Shown piece by piece: positions 3,246-44,641 of a DNA stretch of 48,809 bases (its first letter is position 1; each line of letters opens with the position of its first letter). The notes under the pieces were generated by a model, which saw only the letters and a program-made list of their open reading frames with translations, was not told the origin of the DNA and made no database searches. Source of the DNA: a virus; the IMG/VR virus record IMGVR_UViG_3300047170_000011, positions 1 through 48,809 of that record; one strand, given 5' to 3'. The position numbers and the translations under genes are program-made.

Positions 3246-4121
3246 ATGAGTGAAACCCCGACCACCTTCCACATTCGCAACCGCTGGACCGGCGCGATCC
3301 AGTTTTCCTGCGAACTGAGCGGCGACGTATCCGGACATAGATACGGGCTGAAACTCGGCTTTGCGGTCAAGAAGGCGCTTGAGGCCCGCGCGGACCTGAA
3401 CGGCGCGGCCCTGACCGGCGCGGCCCTGACCGGCGCGGCCCTGACCGGCGCGGACCTGACCGGCGCGGACCTGACCCGCGCGGACCTGACCCGCGCGGCC
3501 CTGACCGGCGCGGACCTGACCGGCGCGGACCTGACCGGCGCGGCGCTGACCGGCGCGGCCCTGACCGGCGCGGACCTGACCGGCGCGGCCCTGACCGGCG
3601 CGGACCTGACCGGCGCGGCGCTGACCGGCGCGGCGCTGACCGGCGCGGACCTGACCGGCGCGGACCTGACCGGCGCGGACCTGACCGGCGCGGCCCTGAC
3701 CGGCGCGGACCTGACCCGCGCGGCCCTGACCCGCGCGGCCCTGACCGGCGCGGACCTGACCGGCGTAAAGCAGGACTTCCTTGCCGAAGTGCTGCGGCTC
3801 CCGAATGAATTGGAGGCTCTCTGTGAGGCCTTGATCGCCGGAAAGGTAGACGGCAGCACTTATTCCGGTGAATGCGCTTGCCTCGCTGGCACCCTCGCGA
3901 AGGCTCACGGCATCGCGCACTACGCCGGTGATGACATCGAAATCGGCTCCGTCACTTTTCATGCCCGGTCTTATTCGCCGCGCGAGATGTTCTTTCGCGC
4001 CATTTGTCCGGGCAATACCCCCGACAACAGCGCGGCAGCCAAGATCGCGCTGGAATGGACCCAGGAAGCCATCGCGATCCGAGACATGATCCGGGCCACC
4101 GCGCCGACCGAGGCCGCCTAA
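3246..4121 (+). CDS. Pentapeptide-repeat protein with 25 near-identical units
   Basis: A 291-residue protein. Residues 1-48 are a unique head; residues 49-173 are 25 pentapeptides, almost all AALTG or ADLTG with a few ADLTR/AALTR and one ADLNG; the remaining residues form a mixed alpha/beta tail (SPREMFFRAICPGNTP). Pentapeptide repeats fold as a right-handed quadrilateral beta helix, and some (Qnr, MfpA) mimic DNA and bind gyrase. Alternating A/D at one face position gives a striped negative surface. The gene starts 4 bases after the upstream stop and is second in the early operon. The DNA-mimic role is inferred. Confidence 0.85.
   Translation: MSETPTTFHIRNRWTGAIQFSCELSGDVSGHRYGLKLGFAVKKALEARADLNGAALTGAALTGAALTGADLTGADLTRADLTRAALTGADLTGADLTGAALTGAALTGADLTGAALTGADLTGAALTGAALTGADLTGADLTGADLTGAALTGADLTRAALTRAALTGADLTGVKQDFLAEVLRLPNELEALCEALIAGKVDGSTYSGECACLAGTLAKAHGIAHYAGDDIEIGSVTFHARSYSPREMFFRAICPGNTPDNSAAAKIALEWTQEAIAIRDMIRATAPTEAA
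3390..3764 (+). repeat. Tandem 15-bp repeat array, 25 copies
   Basis: Twenty-five consecutive 15-base units close to GCGGCCCTGACCGGC / GCGGACCTGACCGGC code the pentapeptides of the host gene. Units differ mostly at one base that switches A to D at residue 2, and sometimes G to R at residue 5. Such DNA-level identity points to recent expansion and predicts copy-number variation between relatives. Confidence 0.95.
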
Positions 4122-5656: not shown

Positions 5657-6120
5657 TGACCGACACAATCGAACTGCCCGTAGCAGACGCGATGACCGCT
5701 TCCGACCTCGTGCAGCACGCGCGCCAGATCGCCGTTCTGATCGGCACGAAGAATGCCGAATGCTTCGTTTCAGCCAGCGGCCACAAGGATAACGAAGCGC
5801 GGGTCTCTTGTTACACCAACTGGCTCACCACCGGCGCCGACAGCGGGCATGAGAGTTTTTCCGGCCGCACCTGGGCCGAAGCCCTAGCCCAAGCCTACGC
5901 CTGGGCACGCACGATCAAAATTGTGGCCCGCGACAAACGCATCCGCGAACTCGCACTCGCCATCGTGGATCTGACCGACCAGCACGGCTCGTGCCGCGTT
6001 GAGCATCTGCGGGCGCGGCGGTTCAGCGATGCCGAGATTGCGGAGTTGCGCGATGCGGCGCTGACGCGGGCGAACGAGATGGCGGGTGGGGCGCCTTTTG
6101 AGATTGTGGGGGTGGTCTGA
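5653..6120 (+). CDS. Hypothetical early protein
   Basis: A 155-residue protein with two possible starts, ATG 5653 and ATG 5656. The N-terminal half (AECFVSASGHKDNEARVSCY, then SGRTWAEALAQAYAWARTIK) resembles small phage proteins that score as single-domain alpha/beta folds; the C-terminal half is helical (RRFSDAEIAELRDAALTRAN). The next gene starts at its last base. Function unknown. Confidence 0.7.
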   Translation: MMTDTIELPVADAMTASDLVQHARQIAVLIGTKNAECFVSASGHKDNEARVSCYTNWLTTGADSGHESFSGRTWAEALAQAYAWARTIKIVARDKRIRELALAIVDLTDQHGSCRVEHLRARRFSDAEIAELRDAALTRANEMAGGAPFEIVGVV

Positions 6121-6710
6121 TGGCCAGCGCATCTGTGCTGTCAGGTTCGCCCTACATCAAAGCTGGCGCTGTCATCTCTGCCTGCGGCACCTACCGCTAT
6201 CATCTGTGGCGTGAATGGCGCGGCCATTATGTGCGCGAGAACTGGATTCCACTCGGCGCGAAAGATGGCGCCGGCCATGAATTGGAAGAACCCAAGCCCG
6301 TTGTGTTCGTCATGCTCAATCCGTCAACCGCTGATGGCTCAAAGGATGATGCCACGATTCGCAAATGCGTTAAGTTCGCCATGCGATGGGGCTACAATCG
6401 GTTGGAGGTGGTCAACCTGTTCGCCTATCGCGCGACCGATCCGCAGGCGTTGCTGAAACTGACGCACGACCGCGACCCGGTTGGGGATCAGAACCAACGA
6501 TATTTCGACCGCGCCTTGAACGAGAGCGGTGATCCACTGGTTATCTGCGCCTGGGGCCAGCACGGCGCGCATCTTGGGCAGGATCAAACTGCACTTGGCT
6601 GGATGATCCCGTATCTGAAAAAGTGGTGTTTCGGGCTGACGAAGGTCGGTCAACCACTGCACCCGCTCTATCAGCGTGACGACGCCGATCTTGTGGAGTT
6701 TCGCCCATGA
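6120..6710 (+). CDS. DUF1643 family protein
   Basis: A 196-residue protein with the DUF1643 hallmarks: PVVFVMLNPSTADGSKDDAT, then IRKCVKFAMRWGYNRLEVVN, then LFAYRATDP, and later VICAWGQHG. The family is common in phages and bacteria and its biochemical function is not established. Cytosolic, no membrane segment. Overlaps both neighbours by a few bases. Confidence 0.9.
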   Translation: MASASVLSGSPYIKAGAVISACGTYRYHLWREWRGHYVRENWIPLGAKDGAGHELEEPKPVVFVMLNPSTADGSKDDATIRKCVKFAMRWGYNRLEVVNLFAYRATDPQALLKLTHDRDPVGDQNQRYFDRALNESGDPLVICAWGQHGAHLGQDQTALGWMIPYLKKWCFGLTKVGQPLHPLYQRDDADLVEFRP

Positions 6711-7686: not shown

Positions 7687-8216
7687 GCGCCACAATCAAG
7701 GCGCCGTCCGGCTGGACCATCGAAACGGTGATGGCGATTGCCAACTCGGCGCTGTCCCGGCTTGAAGCGTCCGACATCGACATGGCGATGGACGACGACG
7801 CGCTGCTGGAAATCTTGCGCGGCGAAGGCGCTGACGTGGACATGGTTTTGCGCCGCCTGATTCTCGCCAGCCTTGAAGCAAAGTCGCTGGCCGATGGTGT
7901 CAAAGCCCGTATGGACGATTTGCGCGCGCGCAAGGAGCGCTTCGAGAAGCGGGCCGAAGCATGGCGCGGCGCGGCGTTCGGCGTGATGGACGCGCTTGGG
8001 GTCACAAAGCACGTCACAGCCGAGTATACCGCCTCCCTTTCATCGCCCAGGCCGGGTCTCGTGATTACTGACGAGATGGCGTTGCCGGCCGAGTATGTCG
8101 TCGTCACCCGCGCGCCGGACAAGGCAAAAATCAAAGCCGCCATGGCCGAAGGCGTCGTGATTGACGGCGCGGAAATGCAGAACGGCAGTCCCGTTCTCAC
8201 AGTCAGGAGCAAGTAG
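7683..8216 (+). CDS. Siphovirus Gp157 family protein
   Basis: A 177-residue protein from GTG 7683. It shows the Gp157 pattern: an acidic N-terminal half, then SLADGVKARMDDLRARKERF in the middle coiled coil and the C-terminal beta segment (PGLVITDEMALPAEYVVVTR, then PDKAKIKAAMAEG, VIDGAEM). Gp157 proteins commonly lie beside single-strand annealing proteins and are thought to act in phage recombination or resistance. Here it precedes RecT, which fits. Confidence 0.85.
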   Translation: MSATIKAPSGWTIETVMAIANSALSRLEASDIDMAMDDDALLEILRGEGADVDMVLRRLILASLEAKSLADGVKARMDDLRARKERFEKRAEAWRGAAFGVMDALGVTKHVTAEYTASLSSPRPGLVITDEMALPAEYVVVTRAPDKAKIKAAMAEGVVIDGAEMQNGSPVLTVRSK

Positions 8217-8217
8217 C

Positions 8218-9030
8218 ATGAGCGTCACTGTCACCACTAGCACAGCATCGTTGGTGCCACAGACCATGGATCAAGCCGTGCGGCTGGCCGAGATCATGTC
8301 GCGTGGCAAACTGATCCCCGAACATATTCGCAATCCGGCCGATGCGCTCATGGTGATCGAACAGGCAATGCGGTGGAATATGTCACCTTTTGCCGTCGCC
8401 CAAGCCACATCCAGCATTCACGGGAAGCTGATGTTCGAAGGCAAGCTAGTCGCCGCCGCGCTGCATTCGTCGGGCGCGCTCGCGACGCGACTTGCCTACG
8501 ACTACGAAGGCGCGGGCGACAACCGGACGGTCAAAGTGTCCGCCACACTAGCCGGCGAGACGGCGCCCCGTGAACTGACGATCCGCTACGGCGACGTGAA
8601 AACGTCGAACGAATGGTGGAAGAAGCAACCCGATCAGCAACTCGCCTATTCCGGCGCTCGCAACTGGGCGCGGCGGTTCGCGCCCGAGGTCATGCTGGGC
8701 GTCTACAGCCCCGAGGAAATGGAACCCGTCGCGCAGGACTCCTACGCTGGCACCACAATTGAGGCCAAGGCAGAGCCGACACCCTCTACCGACACACCTA
8801 AGACTCGCACGGTTCGGGAATGGCTTGACGAGATCGAGGTTGCTTTCGAGGCCGCCACAACCGGCGCCGAGGTCGACAGCATCGTGGGTCGCCCCGAAGT
8901 TCAGAAGGCACTCGACACTTTCAAGAACGGTGCCCGCGAACGACTGAACGCAGCAATGAACAAGGCCCTGTCCCGCACGGCACCGTTTTATGACGACGGC
9001 TCTGGCGCCGCAGAACCCGCCGCCGCCTAA
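8218..9030 (+). CDS. recT: RecT-family single-strand DNA annealing protein
   Basis: A 270-residue protein with RecT-type sequence: AVRLAEIMSRGKLIPEHIRN, then MVIEQAMRWNMSPFAVAQAT, then HGKLMFEGKLVAAAL, NEWWKKQPDQQLAYSGARNW and ARRFAPEVMLGVYSPEEM. RecT anneals complementary strands during phage recombination and replication. No adjacent exonuclease (RecE or lambda Exo type) is visible. The C-terminal 70 residues are variable and acidic. It starts 2 bases after the Gp157 stop. Confidence 0.9.
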   Translation: MSVTVTTSTASLVPQTMDQAVRLAEIMSRGKLIPEHIRNPADALMVIEQAMRWNMSPFAVAQATSSIHGKLMFEGKLVAAALHSSGALATRLAYDYEGAGDNRTVKVSATLAGETAPRELTIRYGDVKTSNEWWKKQPDQQLAYSGARNWARRFAPEVMLGVYSPEEMEPVAQDSYAGTTIEAKAEPTPSTDTPKTRTVREWLDEIEVAFEAATTGAEVDSIVGRPEVQKALDTFKNGARERLNAAMNKALSRTAPFYDDGSGAAEPAAA

Positions 9031-9055: not shown

Positions 9056-9913
9056 ATGACCAACGCCGCAATCACCTACGTCTACAACGAGTCCGTGAAC
9101 CTGCCGATCTGGGTGCGGCACTACGGAGGCGCGTTCGGGCACGAGAACCTGTTTGTCATCGACCGCTGCTCCACGGACGGTAGCACTGCCAACATCGGCG
9201 CCAACATCATCCAAGTCCCCCGCACGGCGTTCGACGACCACAAGAAATCCGCCGCAATCAGCCACCTCCACGCCGCACTGCTGCAATCGTATGACTGCGT
9301 GGTGGTCAGCGACTGCGACGAAATTCTGGTTCCCGACCCTGCCAAATACACAGACCTGGCCGAATACATCGACAAGATGCCGGGTGCCTACGCGACCGCC
9401 ATGGGATTCAACGTTACCCACATCATTGACCGCGAACCCGCGCTCGATCTGCGGCGCCCGATCCTGGACCAGCGCGGCTACCTTTCGTTCAATTCGACCA
9501 TGTGTAAGCCGCTGATCAGCAAAATTCCGCAGACCTGGGCGCCGGGGTTGCACGCGGTCAGGATGCCACCTGCGTTGGATCCCGACCTGCTGGTGTTCCA
9601 TCTGAAAACGATGGATATGGGCATCGCCCAGGCGCGGCAGCGGATCAACAACGAAACCGAATGGTCCGAGGCGTCGATCGCCGCCAACCATGGCAACCAC
9701 CATCGGCAGCACTTCACCAAATTCATGCGTGACGTGTTCTTCTCGGCCGCCGAGCGGGTGAATACCGGGCCGGTGCATGAGTTTGATGGGTTCGAGAAGA
9801 TCATTGCCGACCTCGTGGCGCGGACGCATGTCGGCGCCGAGGGGTTTCATCATGTGCCGTTCGGCGTGAACGCGATGTTTCGTTTGCCTGAGCGGTTTTG
9901 GGGGCGTTTGTGA
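9056..9913 (+). CDS. Glycosyltransferase, GT2-like fold
   Basis: A 285-residue protein from ATG 9056. N-terminal Rossmann-like nucleotide-sugar part: AAITYVYNESVNLPIWVRHY, then LFVIDRCSTDGST; the metal-binding DXD-type motif is CVVVSDCDEILVPDP. Histidine-rich C-terminus (NHGNHHRQHF). Related to GT2-like proteins of the Glyco_tranf_2_4 type that use activated sugars. In a phage it could modify DNA bases, virion proteins or host surface sugars; its place between RecT and a radical-SAM gene favours nucleic-acid modification, an inference. Confidence 0.85.
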   Translation: MTNAAITYVYNESVNLPIWVRHYGGAFGHENLFVIDRCSTDGSTANIGANIIQVPRTAFDDHKKSAAISHLHAALLQSYDCVVVSDCDEILVPDPAKYTDLAEYIDKMPGAYATAMGFNVTHIIDREPALDLRRPILDQRGYLSFNSTMCKPLISKIPQTWAPGLHAVRMPPALDPDLLVFHLKTMDMGIAQARQRINNETEWSEASIAANHGNHHRQHFTKFMRDVFFSAAERVNTGPVHEFDGFEKIIADLVARTHVGAEGFHHVPFGVNAMFRLPERFWGRL

Positions 9914-10104
9914 TGAACGACCGAGACGCCAGCTACGCCGAGATCGACGCCAGCGTCCTGCGCGTTGCCGCGGCTCGGGATGCGGTGGTGAAGGCGGCGA
10001 GGCGGATGGTGTTGGATGGCTTCAGCGATCAGGCGTGGCGTCGGCTGGCGGCGAAGGTTCTTGCGTTGGATGCGCTTTCGGTTGGTGGTGGGAGCGAAGT
10101 GTGA
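9913..10104 (+). CDS. Small helical protein
   Basis: A 63-residue protein starting at ATG 9913 on the last base of the glycosyltransferase stop. Two helices: EIDASVLRVAAARDAVVKAA and AWRRLAAKVLALDALSVGG. The radical-SAM gene overlaps its end by GTGA. Function unknown. Confidence 0.6.
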   Translation: MNDRDASYAEIDASVLRVAAARDAVVKAARRMVLDGFSDQAWRRLAAKVLALDALSVGGGSEV

Positions 10105-10931
10105 GCCGACTCATTCGCGTGTTCCCTCGAAAGACCAAGGCATCGCCAGATGATGCGTTGGCATACTTCGGTCCGCCTGATCTATTTGCCGAGGCTGACG
10201 AGGTTCACATCTCGGTTGCGTTCACCCAGGACAAGGCACGCGCCGAACGGCTGGCAGAAGAATGGAAGTATGTCGCTTCGGTCAAAGTCGGCGGCGTCGC
10301 CTATGGAGATTCCAGCCTTGAGTTCATTCCTGGCCGCTACATCAAACCCGGATACACGATCACGTCACGCGGTTGTCCGCGGCGATGCTGGTTCTGCGGC
10401 GTATGGAAGAAGTGGCCCGCGCCGAACGTGCTACCGATCCACGAAGGCTGGAACATCCTCGACGACAACCTGCTAGCCTGCCCGCGCGATCACGTCGAGG
10501 CGGTGTTTGCCATGCTGCGGCGGCAGAACCGGCGCGTGGAGTTCACCGGCGGCCTCGAAGCCCTCGCCCTTCAAGACTATCAGGTTGACTTGCTCGCCAG
10601 CCTGACGCCACGCCCGAATATGTTTTGGGCGTACGATCCTGGCGACGCCTTCGAGACGCTGGAAAGTGCAGCCAAGCGAATGCTCGAAGCCGGGTTCACC
10701 AGGGCTTCGCACAGGCTGCGCTGCTACGTGATGATCGGATACCCGAAGGATACATTCGACCTTGCCGAACACCGCCTGCGCGAGATGGTGCGGATCGGGC
10801 TGACGCCCCATGCGATGCTGTGGGCACCGTCCTTGCCGTCCGAGGAGAAATGGCGACCTGGGCCAGAGTGGCGCCCGTTTCAGCGTCGGTGGGCGCGACC
10901 GGCGATCATCCATGCACAGGTGACACCATGA
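10101..10931 (+). CDS. Radical-SAM domain protein
   Basis: A 276-residue protein from GTG 10101. The cluster-binding motif CX3CX2C is present in GYTITSRGCPRRCWFCGVWK. Further along are NILDDNLLACPRDHVEAV and EFTGGLEALALQDYQVDLLA, then CYVMIGYPKDTFDLAEHRLR, the usual strand and helix pattern of a partial TIM barrel. It would bind a 4Fe-4S cluster and split S-adenosylmethionine. The substrate is unknown. It is in one operon with a glycosyltransferase, a DUF5131 remnant and a DNA methyltransferase. Confidence 0.88.
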   Translation: MSRLIRVFPRKTKASPDDALAYFGPPDLFAEADEVHISVAFTQDKARAERLAEEWKYVASVKVGGVAYGDSSLEFIPGRYIKPGYTITSRGCPRRCWFCGVWKKWPAPNVLPIHEGWNILDDNLLACPRDHVEAVFAMLRRQNRRVEFTGGLEALALQDYQVDLLASLTPRPNMFWAYDPGDAFETLESAAKRMLEAGFTRASHRLRCYVMIGYPKDTFDLAEHRLREMVRIGLTPHAMLWAPSLPSEEKWRPGPEWRPFQRRWARPAIIHAQVTP

Positions 10932-11113
10932 CCGCCCCAACGGCACCGCCCCGACCCCCGATCCACACGCCGATCCCGAAGCGCGCGCTGTTTCGAAAGC
11001 CGTCCTGCGCGCGCTGGAACGGCTATTCAGCGCGGAGATATGCGGCCTTCTGCCGTGTTTCGACGCCTGCGGCTGTGCTTGCAATGGAATTGGAGGATCG
11101 TGCAGGTGACTGA
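10928..11113 (+). CDS. Short basic protein, frame uncertain
   Basis: A 61-residue frame from ATG 10928 (ATGA overlap with the radical-SAM stop): proline-rich start, then RALFRKPSCARWNGYSARRY. A second frame over the same bases, without a start codon, also looks protein-like (SKAVLRALERLFSAEICGLL, then a cysteine-rich end). Overlapping coding or a frameshift cannot be excluded. Confidence 0.45.
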   Translation: MTAPTAPPRPPIHTPIPKRALFRKPSCARWNGYSARRYAAFCRVSTPAAVLAMELEDRAGD

Positions 11114-11336
11114 TCCAGTTTCGCCGAGTTTGTGGCGACCGAAGCTCCCATGGAGCGTCCATGATTTTTCTGACCGCACAGAAATCAGGGACGACGAAAG
11201 GAAGACGGTGGCGATTTTTTACGTGGATCACCGTGAAAAGGCGCGTTTCATCGTTAAGGCCGCTAATGGCCACTACACCCCAGCCTCGCTCCTGCGGTCA
11301 ATGAAGGGAGGGGATGATGTATCTGCTGCTTTCTAA
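11106..11336 (+). CDS. Hypothetical early protein
   Basis: A 76-residue protein from GTG 11106: LPWSVHDFSDRTEIRDDERK, then IFYVDHREKARFIVKAANGH, a small beta/alpha fold similar in style to short phage proteins. Overlaps the DUF5131 frame by 23 bases. No family recognised. Confidence 0.6.
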   Translation: MTDPVSPSLWRPKLPWSVHDFSDRTEIRDDERKTVAIFYVDHREKARFIVKAANGHYTPASLLRSMKGGDDVSAAF

Positions 11337-11808
11337 GCGCATCGGCAACGCGATCAAAATGTGCGACCCATTCAAGGGTTTGCCTCGGCTCCCACCGAAT
11401 GCCGCGCTGGGGGCAACGATGGTCAACCAAGAAGAATGGGACCGTGACATCGGGAAGCTGCGGCAAGCTGGTGAGCGTCTTGGGGCACAGTTCACTTTTG
11501 CCAGCGTCGAGCCAATGCTCGAACCCATAGACCCCCGCGGCAACTTTCCGGACTGGGTGATTGTCGGCGGCGAGACTGGCGCGCAGCCACGGCATCTTGA
11601 TCCTGAGTGGGCACGATCTCTGCGCGTGGCCGAGCGGCGCCGCGAGCTTCGCGTCTGGCACAGCCAAGGCATTCGCCGGCCCGGTCTTCACTGGTGGTTC
11701 CTGCCGCCAGAGAACGCGATCTATTCGGTGGTTTATGGACCGGGTGGGTGCTTCGAGGAATGTCGCTACTGCGGTAAGAAGCGTCCGCTCGTGGGGCCAG
11801 CAGAGTGA
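11314..11808 (+). CDS. Truncated DUF5131 (phage Gp37/Gp68) protein
   Basis: A 164-residue protein matching the C-terminal half of DUF5131: LLLSKRIGNAIKMCDPFKGL, then NAALGATMVNQEEWDRDIGK, FASVEPMLEPID, DWVIVGGETGAQPRHLDPEW. The usual N-terminal half, with its radical-SAM-like cysteines, is missing and is not found in the upstream gene. Unusually, a CX3CX2C motif appears near the C-terminus (GGCFEECRYCGKK). Start ATG 11314 or 11317, behind GGGAGGGG. It may work with the radical-SAM protein upstream or be a decaying copy. Confidence 0.75.
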   Translation: MMYLLLSKRIGNAIKMCDPFKGLPRLPPNAALGATMVNQEEWDRDIGKLRQAGERLGAQFTFASVEPMLEPIDPRGNFPDWVIVGGETGAQPRHLDPEWARSLRVAERRRELRVWHSQGIRRPGLHWWFLPPENAIYSVVYGPGGCFEECRYCGKKRPLVGPAE

Positions 11809-12827
11809 GCGTGCATATTCTTGAGGGCGACTGCCGCGACGTTCTGCGCAAGCTGCCTGATGCGTCGGTGCATTGCTGCGTGACTTCTCCGCCGTATTAC
11901 GGGCTGCGTGATTATGGCGTCGATGGGCAGATCGGCCTGGAGGCGACGCTCGCCGGATACATCAAGGAAATGGTGTCGGTGTTCGGGGAGATACGGCGCG
12001 TCCTGCGGGACGATGCGACGGTCTGGCTGAACCTGGGGGACACCTACGTCAACGATACGAAGTGGGGCGGCTCGACCAGCGGAAAGCATGTCCGTAAACT
12101 GCACGGCGACACCGGGATAGGTCGCCGCCGACAGAATGCGGGGATGAAGCCCAAAGACTTAATGATGGTGCCGGCCCGTGTGGCACTGGCGCTTCAAGAT
12201 GATGGCTGGTGGCTACGCAGCAATATAGTTTGGGCCAAACCGAACGGTATGCCAGGGAGTCAGAAAAACCGACCCACGTCATCGCATGAGGCGGTCTTTT
12301 TGGTCACCAAAAGCGCGTCCTACTGGTCAGATTTTGACGCCATCAAGACGCCGCCCCGCGAGTCAACGCTAGTCCGGTTGGCGCAGGACGTTCAGGCCCA
12401 AGTCGGTAGCCACCGGGCCAACGGGGGCGCCAAAAAGAATGGCCCCATGAAGGCTGTCAGCGGAGGCAAGCAGCGCGGGCACTCACGTCGCCACGCAGGC
12501 TTCAATGACAGATGGGATGTGATGAAGAAGTCGGAACAGCAATCCCGGCCCGCCATGATGCGCGATGTTTGGTTTGTGCCGACCGGAGGGTATTCAGGAG
12601 GAGGGCACTTTGCCGTCATGCCGGAAGAAATCGCGCGTCGGTGCATATTGGCCGGATGTCCGGTTGGTGGATTGGTTCTGGACCCTTTCGGTGGCTCTGG
12701 CACGGTCGGCCTTGTTGCTGATCGTTTGCAGCGCAATGCCATCCTGATTGAATTGAACCCAGCCTATGCAGCGATGGCGCGGGCGCGCGTTGCTCGCGAC
12801 GCCGGCCTGTTTGCGGAGGTCGTATGA
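11805..12827 (+). CDS. DNA (N4-cytosine or N6-adenine) methyltransferase, beta class
   Basis: A 340-residue protein from GTG 11805. The catalytic motif IV is SPPY (CCVTSPPYYGLRD) near residue 30, and the SAM-binding motif I is near the C-terminus (VLDPFGGSGTVGLVADRL). That order defines the beta group of amino-methyltransferases; SPPY is more usual for N4-cytosine enzymes but also occurs in N6-adenine ones. The middle 200-260 region is a variable target-recognition segment. No restriction endonuclease lies beside it, so it probably protects phage DNA or regulates genes. Confidence 0.92.
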   Translation: MSVHILEGDCRDVLRKLPDASVHCCVTSPPYYGLRDYGVDGQIGLEATLAGYIKEMVSVFGEIRRVLRDDATVWLNLGDTYVNDTKWGGSTSGKHVRKLHGDTGIGRRRQNAGMKPKDLMMVPARVALALQDDGWWLRSNIVWAKPNGMPGSQKNRPTSSHEAVFLVTKSASYWSDFDAIKTPPRESTLVRLAQDVQAQVGSHRANGGAKKNGPMKAVSGGKQRGHSRRHAGFNDRWDVMKKSEQQSRPAMMRDVWFVPTGGYSGGGHFAVMPEEIARRCILAGCPVGGLVLDPFGGSGTVGLVADRLQRNAILIELNPAYAAMARARVARDAGLFAEVV

Positions 12828-35039: not shown

Positions 35040-36484
35040 TACAGCGGCCTTCCATCGGGCGCGATCTGCGCCATGGGTCGGCCATATTTCCAGAACACGC
35101 CGGCGACGCCGGAACCCTCGATTTTGAACCGCATCAGCATTCCGCTGGCGTCTACGGTGAACCACTGCGTCGTCGGCGTGACGGTATAGGGACCATAGGT
35201 GATCGGTGCCGGGTCTTGGGGATTTTGCGCGACATAGACCGTGATATTCAGGCTTGGATTGGTGCCCTGCCACACGAAGTCGGGCCAGATGCGGTCAAGG
35301 TGGATCTGTTCCTCGCCAGCCTGAATCGCAAACCAGCCAGTCAGAAAGAAGTCGTCCAGCACCGCGCCGTCGAAATCCACGGCGGTCTCGAACTGCTGAA
35401 GCAGGCCGGCATAATCGGCGCCCACGGGTGGCCCAAACTCTGACTGATCCGCCCAGGCCCCGATGTTCGGCAGTCCGGACCCTTTGAACCAGATATTCGC
35501 CCCGCGATTCCACATCACGTAGGCGTTGCAGACCCCGTTCGAGCCTGTCGTCGGGAAACGCCAGACGATCTCGTCGTACCATGAGTTTGCGCAGGCCACG
35601 ATGCGGGAAACCTGCGTTCGGTCGAGCGAGCCGAACACGAAGTCATGCACCGAACAAGGAAGCTCCGTGACGCCGGACCCGTCGAACACGAAGAAGGCAT
35701 TCTGCGACATCCAGGGCACCACGTTGCCCAGAATGGCGAACGCATGGCGCGCGATCAGACCGCAGTTGCGCGAGATTTGGTTGAACCCATAAACGAGCGG
35801 GAAATCCACATAGGACTGCGCCCACAGGTCAAGATCGGTCCAGACCAGGCCCGAGATGCCGAACCACGTCCCGCCCATGATCTTGTTGCCCGAGGCGAGG
35901 CGGAACGTCCCGGCCTGGTTCGTGGCCGAAGCCGTCCAGTCGTTCAAATTGGCGACATCGCACCAACCCAGCAGCATGGGGTCGATTTCGCCCAGAGACG
36001 CCGAGTAGATGCCCCAGCCGATTAGCTGCTGTTCGGGCGAGGCGATTAAGATTCCGGTGAAGTTGGTCGGTGCGCCCGTGACTGCGACTGCGACGTTTCC
36101 GCCCGCAACGGGAGGCACCCACTGATAGAGCGTGCTGGCCGGAAATACGGCGACGACGTTCTCGCCCCACTTGTCGATCGACCATTCCGTTGCCGCGGTG
36201 AAGCCGGCCGGAGTGATGTCGGTGACAGCCGTTCCAGTCAGCACCTCAAGATGCGTCGTGGTGCCGACCGTGATGTGACTTACGCCGTTGTTCTCGGCCC
36301 CGGCAAACAGCGCCAGCGGCGCGCCGAGGAACGGGTTTGCGTTGAGATGCTGACAGCCGCCCAGCTTTGTGATCGCGCCCTCGTGGTAGCGCACGAGGTT
36401 GCTGTCGGTCATGCCCTGGCCCACGGCGAGCGGGCTGCGGCTAGTGTCCACTCCCGGCTTCACGTCCAGGTAGGTCGGTTGCAT
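35039..36484 (-). CDS. Packaged DNA stabilisation / tail nozzle-type protein
   Basis: A 481-residue protein with a WD-like beta-propeller pattern: GVDTSRSPLAVGQGMTDSNL, ITKLGGCQHLNANPFLGAPL, EWSIDKWGENVVAVFP and GWCDVANLNDWTASATNQAG. It resembles P22 gp10 / podoviral nozzle proteins that plug the portal and contact the tail. Position next to adaptor-like genes supports this. Confidence 0.75.
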   Translation of the reverse strand: MQPTYLDVKPGVDTSRSPLAVGQGMTDSNLVRYHEGAITKLGGCQHLNANPFLGAPLALFAGAENNGVSHITVGTTTHLEVLTGTAVTDITPAGFTAATEWSIDKWGENVVAVFPASTLYQWVPPVAGGNVAVAVTGAPTNFTGILIASPEQQLIGWGIYSASLGEIDPMLLGWCDVANLNDWTASATNQAGTFRLASGNKIMGGTWFGISGLVWTDLDLWAQSYVDFPLVYGFNQISRNCGLIARHAFAILGNVVPWMSQNAFFVFDGSGVTELPCSVHDFVFGSLDRTQVSRIVACANSWYDEIVWRFPTTGSNGVCNAYVMWNRGANIWFKGSGLPNIGAWADQSEFGPPVGADYAGLLQQFETAVDFDGAVLDDFFLTGWFAIQAGEEQIHLDRIWPDFVWQGTNPSLNITVYVAQNPQDPAPITYGPYTVTPTTQWFTVDASGMLMRFKIEGSGVAGVFWKYGRPMAQIAPDGRPL

Positions 36485-37215
36485 CAGGCTGTCTGCGGTA
36501 ACGGCTGACGCGGCAGGTTTGGCGTCATGCCGCGGCGGCGCATTTCCTCAAGCAGCGCGCCGTCCTTGAGCGCGGCATACTGGCTTTCATAGCTGACAGC
36601 CATCTTGGGGTCTTCGGACTGCGCCCCGTAGTTCTTCTTCACCCACCCCGAGAGATAGATCATCGTGGCCGTTGTCATCAGTTCGGGATACTCAGCCGTG
36701 AGGTAGGTCGTCGGGTTAGATGCGCTCAGTTCCTCCGGTTGGAAAAGCCCCGTGATGACGGCAGTGTAGGCCGCATCCGGCGTGGGCGCGACGACGATGG
36801 TGTCCGCGTCCAGGAGCGCCCACCAGCGCCCCAGATTGTCGGCCGCGCTCGGGGCCAAGGTGACGGACTGCTCGGGCCAGAGAATGTCGATCATGTCGAG
36901 CGAACATTCTTCGTAAGGGTAGAAGGTGCCCGTGGCCGTTGTGCTGCCTGTGGGCGAACACAGCCCAAAGCCTTCCGCGACAACCAGGGGAAGCGCGGTC
37001 ATGTTGATCGTCCGAGAGCCGGCAGTCGTTGCCAGCGTCGTGTTGGACTGCCGCGTTGCCAACAGCATGAGGTCGCTGTAGATGCGGTTCTCTGCATAGG
37101 AAATCGCAAGCGGAAAGATCGCCGCGAAAGCCGGGGGCACCACCGTATAGGGCGATGCCGCTTGGCTGGTCGCGACCAAGCACGCCGTCTGAAGCGTGGG
37201 GTAATCGAGTGCCAT
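36484..37215 (-). CDS. Head-tail adaptor-like protein
   Basis: A 243-residue protein: MALDYPTLQTACLVATSQAA, then FPLAISYAENRIYSDLMLLA, and a C-terminal helix bundle (YPELMTTATMIYLSGWVKKN, then YAALKDGALLEEMRRRGM). This fits phage adaptor/connector proteins between portal and nozzle. Overlaps the stabilisation gene. Confidence 0.7.
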   Translation of the reverse strand: MALDYPTLQTACLVATSQAASPYTVVPPAFAAIFPLAISYAENRIYSDLMLLATRQSNTTLATTAGSRTINMTALPLVVAEGFGLCSPTGSTTATGTFYPYEECSLDMIDILWPEQSVTLAPSAADNLGRWWALLDADTIVVAPTPDAAYTAVITGLFQPEELSASNPTTYLTAEYPELMTTATMIYLSGWVKKNYGAQSEDPKMAVSYESQYAALKDGALLEEMRRRGMTPNLPRQPLPQTA

Positions 37216-39584: not shown

Positions 39585-40474
39585 ACGAGTGGAATCGCCC
39601 TTCCCGCGTCGTCGGTGATCAGGTTGCCGTAATCGTCGGTCAGCCAGAGCGTGTCGCCGCCGCTCTCCCATGCCCAGAACGGCACACCGCCCAGCAGGCC
39701 GATGACGTTGATCGAACCCTGATACGCCGCGCCCAGGCCCTGATCGGTGGACCAGAAATACGCCTCTCCCGGCCCGAGAATCAGGTTCGTCGTCACGCCC
39801 CAAAAGGCCGGCCCGCTCAGCGATATCTGGATCTGCGTCTGCGTCGGATTGTAAAGCACGATCCAGTTCCGCGCCGGCTGCTCCAGCATGCACGCCATGG
39901 TCTTGTTGGGAACAATGTCGAGGGAACGATCAAACACCTGCGTCGGCGTGGGAATGTCGGCCACAGCCGCAATCGAGGCAAGCACGCCGGCCTTCGTGGT
40001 CGGATAGATGCGGTCGGCCGCTGCGCCTGGTTGCGCCGTGGCGGTACCGATCTGCACGTAGATGCGCCGCCAGCGGCCATCGGCTAGCTGGTCACGGTAA
40101 TTGTCCACCAGGAACGCATTGATCGGCGCATCGGCCGGACTTTCCACCAGACCGAGCGTGTATTGCGAGAAGCCGTAGGTGGTGGGTGATGTCGGCACCC
40201 CCGGAGGCCCGAACGACCATGGCGTCGTCCAGAAGTCAGAACGCGGGTTCATGCGCGGCACGGGGTCTTGCGGCAGGATCAGCGTGCGGAACTGATCCTG
40301 GGGCACATCAAGGCACCGGCGACATACAAGGTAGCCGGTGTCGCGCAGCGCCGGGCCGGCCCACTCGAACTGTGGCTGCAATTCGTCCAGAAGATATCGC
40401 TCCTCGCAACGGTCGCACACCGCCTGGGCCAGCGGTCGCCGCAGACTGACCCGTGCGCGCCCGTTATAGCTCAT
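39581..40474 (-). CDS. Structural protein with zinc-ribbon N-terminus
   Basis: A 297-residue protein. CDRCEERYLLDE and YLVCRRCLDVPQDQF give two CX2C pairs, a zinc ribbon, near the N-terminus. The rest is beta-rich (MLEQPARNWIVLYNPTQTQI, then LGPGEAYFWSTDQGLGAAYQ), like a virion surface domain. Overlaps both neighbours. Confidence 0.7.
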   Translation of the reverse strand: MSYNGRARVSLRRPLAQAVCDRCEERYLLDELQPQFEWAGPALRDTGYLVCRRCLDVPQDQFRTLILPQDPVPRMNPRSDFWTTPWSFGPPGVPTSPTTYGFSQYTLGLVESPADAPINAFLVDNYRDQLADGRWRRIYVQIGTATAQPGAAADRIYPTTKAGVLASIAAVADIPTPTQVFDRSLDIVPNKTMACMLEQPARNWIVLYNPTQTQIQISLSGPAFWGVTTNLILGPGEAYFWSTDQGLGAAYQGSINVIGLLGGVPFWAWESGGDTLWLTDDYGNLITDDAGRAIPLV

Positions 40475-41214
40475 CGCAGCCGCCCATAGACCGACACGTT
40501 GGGCGTCATCATGAACGGACCCGTCTCCTGGTCATTCGTGATGAAATACTCCCAATCCTCGGCCGCCTGCGCCTTCTTGTCCTTGAACATTTCCGGCGCG
40601 AACTTCTCGGCAAAGCGAGCCGTGATTCCGCTGCACAGCGCGTCAAGGCCGCGATACACCACATCCGGCGTTTCGCCCGATCCAAGGTTCGCGTCGAAGA
40701 TGCGCTGGAGATAGAAGTAGTTCAGCGTGGCGTAGGGCGCCCCATAGGCCGGAACCTGCCACAGCGTCAGCTGCGGCGCGGCCAACCGCTCGAACCAGTA
40801 TTGCGTTGGAATCCCCGTCTGTGTCTTGTTCGGGATCATCGCATACTCGGTGCGCGTCAGCGGCGCCATGAACCGATCGGTCGTGATGCCGGGGCTTGGC
40901 GGCGGCGGCACGGGCAGCACCGGGCCGTTCTGCGTCGAGTACCAAAGCTCGGTGAGCGTCACGAGATCGCTGGGTAGAGCGTAGGTCGCCTGTCCGGCCA
41001 CCAGCGTAATAGTGGCTTCGACGACCTTCCACAGATTCACGCCGCGCAATGACCACCTGACAAGTTCCAAGTTGAGCGAGCGTCGCAATGAGATCATGTG
41101 ATTGCGCGTGATCTCGGCGGGGTTCTTGCCGCACCGCTCCGCCGCCTCAAACAGGATTTCGCCATTCGAGAGCGTGAAGGCGGTTGTGCCCGAGGATGTG
41201 CCCGGCGTCGCCAT
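40471..41214 (-). CDS. Head-completion / adaptor-like protein
   Basis: A 247-residue protein: FTLSNGEILFEAAERCGKNP, then YALPSDLVTLTELWYSTQNG, YWFERLAAPQLTLWQVPAYG and LCSGITARFAEKFAPEMFKD. This is the pattern of podoviral adaptor or P22 gp4-like proteins at the portal. Preceded by a 68-base gap. Called from family-like sequence plus position. Confidence 0.7.
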   Translation of the reverse strand: MATPGTSSGTTAFTLSNGEILFEAAERCGKNPAEITRNHMISLRRSLNLELVRWSLRGVNLWKVVEATITLVAGQATYALPSDLVTLTELWYSTQNGPVLPVPPPPSPGITTDRFMAPLTRTEYAMIPNKTQTGIPTQYWFERLAAPQLTLWQVPAYGAPYATLNYFYLQRIFDANLGSGETPDVVYRGLDALCSGITARFAEKFAPEMFKDKKAQAAEDWEYFITNDQETGPFMMTPNVSVYGRLR

Positions 41215-43732: not shown

Positions 43733-44641
43733 TCAGTTGGTCGGGAAGACGCCTACGCCGAGGCGAAAATCGTCCGATCCGAAATAGTAACGTTCGTACG
43801 CCTTCACCATCAGGTTGTCGGTGGTGAAGTCCGTCTGCATCGAGGTCTCGAACGGCTTGCGCTCCAGGTAGATCAGGCCGCCAGCGTCGGACAACACGAA
43901 CCAAGCGTAGTCGCTGGTAAGGAAGTCCAGCACGACGTAGCTGTCGGCCAGATCTCCGCTTTCCCGCAGCGACGCCGCATCGCGGTTCGCCGTGCCGGGC
44001 CGCGCCTCGGTCTCCATCAGGCGCTTGGCGACGTGCCGCTGCGCGACAGGCACCACCAGTTTGCGACCCTGGAACAGCGCCAGCAGACCTTCGTTGGTGC
44101 GGAAGCGGCGCACCATGTTGTTGGCCTGCGCCAGCGTGTTTTCGTTCAGGCCGGTCTGCACCGTGGGCGTGTTCGGCACGAGATAGCCGTCCACCGGATG
44201 CTGCGTCGAGAACAGGGGAAGGTTGTCGCCGCCGAGCGTGGGGTTCAACACGTTGCCGTTGTTCAGCGTGGAGGCGCCCATCACCTCCTTCATCTGGCGG
44301 AACGAGCGCGCCAGGCCGAGGTTGGCCGCGTCGAAAGCCGACTTGTAGAGGTTGTCGTCCAGCGCCTCGCGGGTGAACGCATAACCGAGGCCGAAGGCAA
44401 CGTGGATGTGGTTGTAGACGAACCGCTGGCCGGACAGATTGTCCATCTGGACCGGCTGGCCGGTGCCCTTGAGCTGCGGCAGCGGCACGTATCGGACATG
44501 GACGGTCTTTTCCGCCTCCATGTTCGACTGGCCCTTCTCGTAGATCGACGCCCACTGCGTCTTGATCTCCGGATACTCGCCCTTGAGCTTGCGCACGCCG
44601 GGCAGCAGCATCGCCGGGATTTGGGAGGTTGTGATTGCCAT
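43733..44641 (-). CDS. Major capsid protein (Mu gpT-like)
   Basis: A 302-residue protein similar to Mu-type head subunit gpT and related HK97-fold capsids: VAFGLGYAFTREALDDNLYK, then ARSFRQMKEVMGASTLNNGN, DNLPLFSTQHPVDGYLVPNT, FRTNEGLLALFQGRKLVVPV. It forms the icosahedral shell. It lies in the usual scaffold-to-structural order. TGAGGGAG upstream provides the ribosome-binding site. Confidence 0.88.
   Translation of the reverse strand: MAITTSQIPAMLLPGVRKLKGEYPEIKTQWASIYEKGQSNMEAEKTVHVRYVPLPQLKGTGQPVQMDNLSGQRFVYNHIHVAFGLGYAFTREALDDNLYKSAFDAANLGLARSFRQMKEVMGASTLNNGNVLNPTLGGDNLPLFSTQHPVDGYLVPNTPTVQTGLNENTLAQANNMVRRFRTNEGLLALFQGRKLVVPVAQRHVAKRLMETEARPGTANRDAASLRESGDLADSYVVLDFLTSDYAWFVLSDAGGLIYLERKPFETSMQTDFTTDNLMVKAYERYYFGSDDFRLGVGVFPTN

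Follow-up and report, generated by a model that had tools for sequence, protein, structure and literature searches.

Four enzyme-type genes behind RecT in a tailed-phage record, one of them truncated, are probably separately acquired accessory genes

Do the enzyme-type genes lying right behind a RecT-like gene in the IMG/VR virus record IMGVR_UViG_3300047170_000011 form one DNA modification pathway, or are they independent accessory genes? The window, i.e. the whole stretch of DNA that was analysed, is the entire record of 48,809 bases, and the gene run in question occupies part of a tailed phage's early arm. A first-pass annotation had read the run as four enzyme-type genes, encoding a glycosyltransferase (GT), a radical S-adenosylmethionine (SAM) enzyme, from now on referred to as rSAM, a DUF5131 protein and a DNA methyltransferase (MTase), which together could make a new modified base or an anti-restriction mark. 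Pfam and PHROG matches confirm the GT, rSAM and MTase, whose open reading frames (ORFs) are intact, but the DUF5131 gene is only a fragment. We favor the explanation that the run consists of separately acquired accessory genes and probably does not constitute one pathway. Since the genes appear to have been acquired separately and one of them is broken, the four probably do not build one DNA base together.

The set as a whole was found together in no other examined locus, and GT, rSAM and MTase are not conserved as a unit among the relatives of rSAM, RecT or the MTase. Relatives of rSAM are present in 59 viral contigs (metagenomic or prophage, 49-85% identity); a GT relative was found in none of these loci, DUF5131 in one (about 5 kb away) and a methyltransferase nearby in few. 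The 21 MTase loci contain no rSAM or GT relative and include one with DUF5131. Further, none of 16 viral loci with RecT relatives carries a GT or rSAM relative or the complete set. Seven of the 16 keep a detectable Gp157 beside RecT; this Gp157-RecT pair is conserved while the downstream genes are not. A conserved cassette behind RecT was thus rejected.

The DUF5131 ORF (11314-11808, plus strand) covers only positions 105-209 of the 243 positions of PF07505. Its likeness to DUF5131 (Gp37/Gp68) proteins is confined to about 104 central residues, which align with residues 126-230 of the nearest homologue (272 amino acids, locus L061) at 72% identity over bases 11311-11625. Homology begins past the three-cysteine iron-sulphur motif GCxxxSxxCxxCYA and ends at about base 11625. 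Unlike full-length DUF5131 proteins, the fragment therefore lacks the N-terminal half with its GCx(6)Cx(2)CYA motif as well as the C-terminal end. A translated search with full-length viral homologues found the missing N-terminal half nowhere in the six frames of the window, which argues for a real deletion or replacement and against a reading-frame error; a frameshift as the source of the short gene was accordingly rejected. The last ~60 codons of the ORF are unrelated to DUF5131, and the first 20 residues of this tail match a small ORF from L174, the contig of an unrelated phage. Without the catalytic motif, the remnant would be inactive as an iron-sulphur enzyme. The ratio of nonsynonymous to synonymous substitution rates (dN/dS) of the surviving part is 0.124 against L061, a value that fits recent truncation. 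The fragment scores 17.7 bits against TIGR04471 (Radical SAM mobile pair protein A), far from the curated cut-off of 355, and matches the candidate families PDC-M41B and PDC-M30B among defence-library models. The foreign tail (11626-11808) carries the sequence CFEECRYCGKK, whose spacing is CX3CX2C-like and which resembles a zinc knuckle more than a radical-SAM motif.

The GT gene (9056-9913, plus strand, 285 amino acids) opens the run. Its product matches PF13704 with 30.1 bits against a cut-off of 27.5 (E 6.8e-7) and has a GT-A domain with a D-x-D motif (SDCDE), in which D86, D88 and E89 are invariant across four homologues. The closest relatives found are GT2 proteins on Paracoccus plasmids (37-43% identity), the best of them sharing 37% identity over the whole length and adjoining two other glycosyltransferases in a polysaccharide-like plasmid cluster. 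Single-sequence and alignment searches returned no relatives in viral contigs, isolate phages yielded none, and a search of 199 genomes (order of one locus) gave one weak match; defence-library models did not match the GT. Judged by these sequence relatives, the enzyme is more likely to act on a surface sugar, and its acceptor may be something other than DNA, for example a polysaccharide of the host.

The last gene of the run (11805-12827, plus strand, 340 amino acids) encodes an orphan DNA MTase of the N4-cytosine/N6-adenine type (PF01555, E 4.7e-44; phrog_67, E 1e-69). It is full length, spanning positions 1-219 of the 221 positions of PF01555 (151 bits), and motif IV (TSPPY) precedes motif I (DPFGGSG), the beta order, in agreement with membership of PF01555. 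Among its relatives of solved structure are CcrM and N4-cytosine MTases. Similar to other orphan PF01555/phrog_67 phage methyltransferases, with whose full-length copies it shares 37-54% identity, it shows the same motif order, and nothing notable sets it apart from them. Within a short motif of phage DNA, the enzyme would methylate cytosine at N4 or adenine at N6 and might thereby block some host restriction. An anti-restriction mark, as suggested in the first-pass annotation, could plausibly be supplied by this orphan enzyme alone, without joint base synthesis.

The rSAM gene (10101-10931, plus strand, GTG start) encodes 276 amino acids and matches phrog_9298 (E 7e-15) as well as, under the Pfam cut-off, PF04055 (E 1.1e-5). 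Its CX3CX2C motif (CPRRCWFC) and the barrel fold of its AlphaFold2 model (mean predicted local distance difference test score, pLDDT, 88.9) place it in the radical SAM superfamily. In a 57-sequence alignment, C92, C96 and C99 of this motif are the sole invariant cysteines and one more is nearly invariant, so that one [4Fe-4S] cluster is expected. Close folds over the whole length (VIA) include MgmA (Z 15.1), MiaB (14.7) and AprD4 (14.6), aligned over 253-265 residues with a root-mean-square deviation of about 4 Å. The enzyme thus shares its fold and CX3CX2C motif with B12-type/MiaB-like enzymes (MgmA, AprD4, MiaB, RimO), but has only 276 amino acids, about 10-15% identity to them and no second invariant cysteine set. 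Identity as a methylthiotransferase of the MiaB/RimO kind was rejected because a further three conserved cysteines, which would bind an auxiliary cluster, are missing. By sequence, no solved relative was convincing; NCBIfam and defence-library models gave no match, and a BFVD fold search returned nothing at E ≤ 0.001. We found no paper describing the family; the literature includes a Thermus rSAM module with DUF483 (PMC11437467).

The family is under strong purifying selection, with dN/dS values of 0.06-0.11 that are approximate as synonymous sites are near saturation. Among 50,697 isolate phage records, two match rSAM; both are records of one virus and the match is weak. Scanning bacterial genomes with the family alignment gave at least 80 retained loci from many phyla. 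Neighbours whose sequences suggest, for example, integrases and a DNA topoisomerase indicate that at least some of these loci would lie on mobile elements. Six relatives on Firmicutes contigs (L099, L100, L101, L103, L105 and L110) share DNA topoisomerase and several further neighbours and probably represent one family of integrative elements.

Neighbours of rSAM were analysed in 140 loci, with genes within 1 kb counted as near and those at 2 kb or more as far. Near-duplicates were then collapsed at 88% rSAM identity, and the remaining loci were counted as independent observations in the test. Hidden Markov models (HMMs) derived from the sequences of the loci served to assign neighbour families, and Pfam was used to check representatives; the control anchors RecT and DUF1643 gave few loci. 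The density of C5-cytosine methyltransferase (C5-MTase) genes drops steeply with distance from rSAM across the 140 loci, and after deduplication 20 are near and 8 far (9.3-fold, p 1.6e-8). Genes for proteins resembling 3′-phosphoadenosine 5′-phosphosulphate (PAPS) reductase are likewise enriched (12 near, 6 far, 7.5-fold, p 4e-5). No enrichment near rSAM was seen for the internal controls, N4/N6 MTases (0.9-fold) and MT-A70 (1.1-fold), or for integrases (1.4-fold). Because these families had been picked after looking, all clusters were ranked as well, and the top two places went to separate C5-MTase clusters (p 2.7e-5 and 2.9e-5). Gene order varies, with PAPS-reductase, C5-MTase and rSAM in L129 and PAPS-reductase, rSAM and C5-MTase in L117, and the genes overlap or abut. 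On the rSAM tree, the 20 C5-positive rows require at least 15 changes; the pairing is therefore not one inherited event. Bacterial-genome loci give the signal (C5-MTase 15 near and 3 far, p 9e-9; PAPS-reductase-like 11 near and 1 far, p 1.4e-7). Among viral loci, the group to which the window belongs, C5-MTase enrichment is weak (6 near and 5 far, p 0.034, one duplicate pair included) and PAPS-reductase-like genes are not enriched.

PAPS-reductase-like proteins occur in Dnd and BREX modules, and some Dnd-related loci include cytosine methylases (PMC10853773; PMC11437467). As in the Dnd, BREX and Ssp PP-loop (PAPS-reductase-like) modules (PMC10853773), rSAM relatives often adjoin PAPS-reductase-like and C5-methylase genes, but the window has neither: C5-MTases (with working controls) and PAPS-reductase-like genes (with the local HMMs) were not found in the record. 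The company kept by the family is suggestive of a DNA substrate, without proof, and the substrate of rSAM is probably nucleic-acid-related. The enzyme would reductively cleave SAM at its single [4Fe-4S] cluster; going by the recurring neighbours of the family, the resulting 5′-deoxyadenosyl radical might have a nucleic acid or a nucleotide as its substrate. We tentatively hypothesize, as a possibility and not as the expected outcome, that the family comprises uncharacterised nucleic-acid-modifying enzymes on phages and mobile elements of many bacterial phyla which work with C5-MTases and PAPS-reductase-like ATP pyrophosphatases toward an unknown DNA mark, the window carrying a stand-alone copy. 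Being strongly conserved, present in 59 viral contigs and recurrent beside these two gene types, the rSAM family merits attention. If its substrate is DNA, a radical enzyme would join the chemistry that phages use for genome marking, an idea that can be tested directly with the family alignment and the list of neighbours.

Several observations weigh against separate acquisition. The overlapping genes form one apparent operon, and DUF5131 recurs beside rSAM elsewhere (8 near, 8 far, 3.7-fold, p 0.01). The dN/dS of the DUF5131 fragment fits a still-used domain as well as recent truncation; the domain might still be in use, though nothing supports this. Finally, no solved or phage homologue that would point to its acceptor was found for the GT. 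Glycosylation and hypermodification of bases are well documented in phages, and radical-SAM enzymes take part in phage base-hypermodification pathways; phage-borne GT and radical-SAM genes in a single overlapping run are what the window has in common with such systems. In these, 5-hydroxymethylcytosine or 5-hydroxymethyluracil is made by thymidylate-synthase-type or TET/JBP enzymes and is then glycosylated or further modified. However, searches of the record yielded no enzyme, whether hydroxylating or of thymidylate-synthase type, that would add a sugar-accepting hydroxyl to a base. A thymidylate-synthase-type gene (PF00303) is absent from it, with working controls, although the record may be a fragment; the TET/JBP dioxygenase model (PF12851) matched neither the record nor any control genome; and Pfam or PHROG scans of most other larger ORFs revealed no base-modification enzymes, which could still be encoded outside the record. 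Together with the missing C5-MTase, the broken DUF5131 gene, the lack of conservation of the set, and a GT that by search is unrelated to phage GTs and has plasmid-borne relatives, the best of them beside other GTs, this makes a joint pathway to a new glycosylated base unlikely. A single pathway of GT, rSAM, DUF5131 and MTase leading to a glycosylated or otherwise hypermodified base, as had been suggested, is in our estimate highly improbable, and the cassette as originally described is ordinary and not worth pursuing as a four-gene base-synthesis pathway.

A smaller partnership, in which rSAM further modifies a base methylated by the adjacent MTase and the GT is unrelated, would be in line with the tight link of the wider family to C5-MTases and with the overlapping or abutting genes in L129, L117 and L077. 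However, the MTase of the window is of the N4/N6 type, the type without a link to rSAM, and the association with C5-MTases is itself weak among viral loci, which leaves this joint action on phage DNA rather unlikely. About equally doubtful, and if anything slightly less so, is a role for rSAM in host takeover that does not involve DNA, with RNA or a small molecule (tRNA, peptide or metabolite) as its target and its neighbours merely marking a zone of phage accessory genes. The close folds do include a tRNA enzyme (MiaB) and a protein methylase (MgmA), and most viral rSAM loci have no MTase within 1.5 kb. A general accessory zone nevertheless explains the enrichment of C5-MTase and PAPS-reductase-like genes poorly, because no comparable clustering is seen for MT-A70, N4/N6 MTases or integrases. 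The DUF5131 fragment could also be imagined as a split partner acting in trans with the adjacent intact rSAM, since the fragment is constrained and DUF5131 stands beside rSAM in 8 loci. In the inspected neighbour loci L123 and L090, however, DUF5131 has its own N-terminal cysteine motif, and the fragment bears a foreign C-terminus; we regard this idea as extremely improbable. Separate acquisition of the genes is the explanation that we retain.

The description of the run as overlapping and right behind RecT holds. The RecT-like single-strand annealing protein (8212-9030, ORF from 8161, plus strand; PF03837, E 2.5e-11; phrog_561, E 1.1e-59) precedes it with an ORF ending at 9030, and all genes of the run lie head to tail on the plus strand, with overlapping neighbours from 9913 onward. 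The earlier four-gene list passed over three small plus-strand ORFs, of 63 amino acids (9913-10104, overlapping both neighbours, GC of third codon positions 0.75), 61 amino acids (10928-11113, ATGA overlap with the rSAM stop) and 76 amino acids (11106-11336, listed without protein match). Their proteins have no match in any retrieved locus. A precursor of the ribosomally synthesized and post-translationally modified peptide type following rSAM was rejected, as the 61-amino-acid ORF has no counterpart in any retrieved locus.

As for the rest of the record, its 48,809 bases, which may be incomplete, showed no terminal repeat of 11-200 bases, and Pfam recognised no terminase or portal among the scanned ORFs of 12905-48809. 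The record may lack one end. The same arm as the run encodes a DUF1643 protein (6120-6710; PF07799, E 5.5e-36) with four relatives in viral contigs that bear IMG genome ids in their names; in one of them (L165), a DUF5131 gene and a gene of the PAPS-reductase-like kind both lie no more than about 1 kb away. A pentapeptide-repeat protein (3246-4121; PF00805, E 1.3e-37) scores far under the curated Qnr cut-offs; its fold is known from DNA-mimicking gyrase-protection proteins. Two proteins match the SU10_adaptor family (36484-37215 and 40471-41214), and a Mu gpT-like head protein is encoded at 43733-44641.

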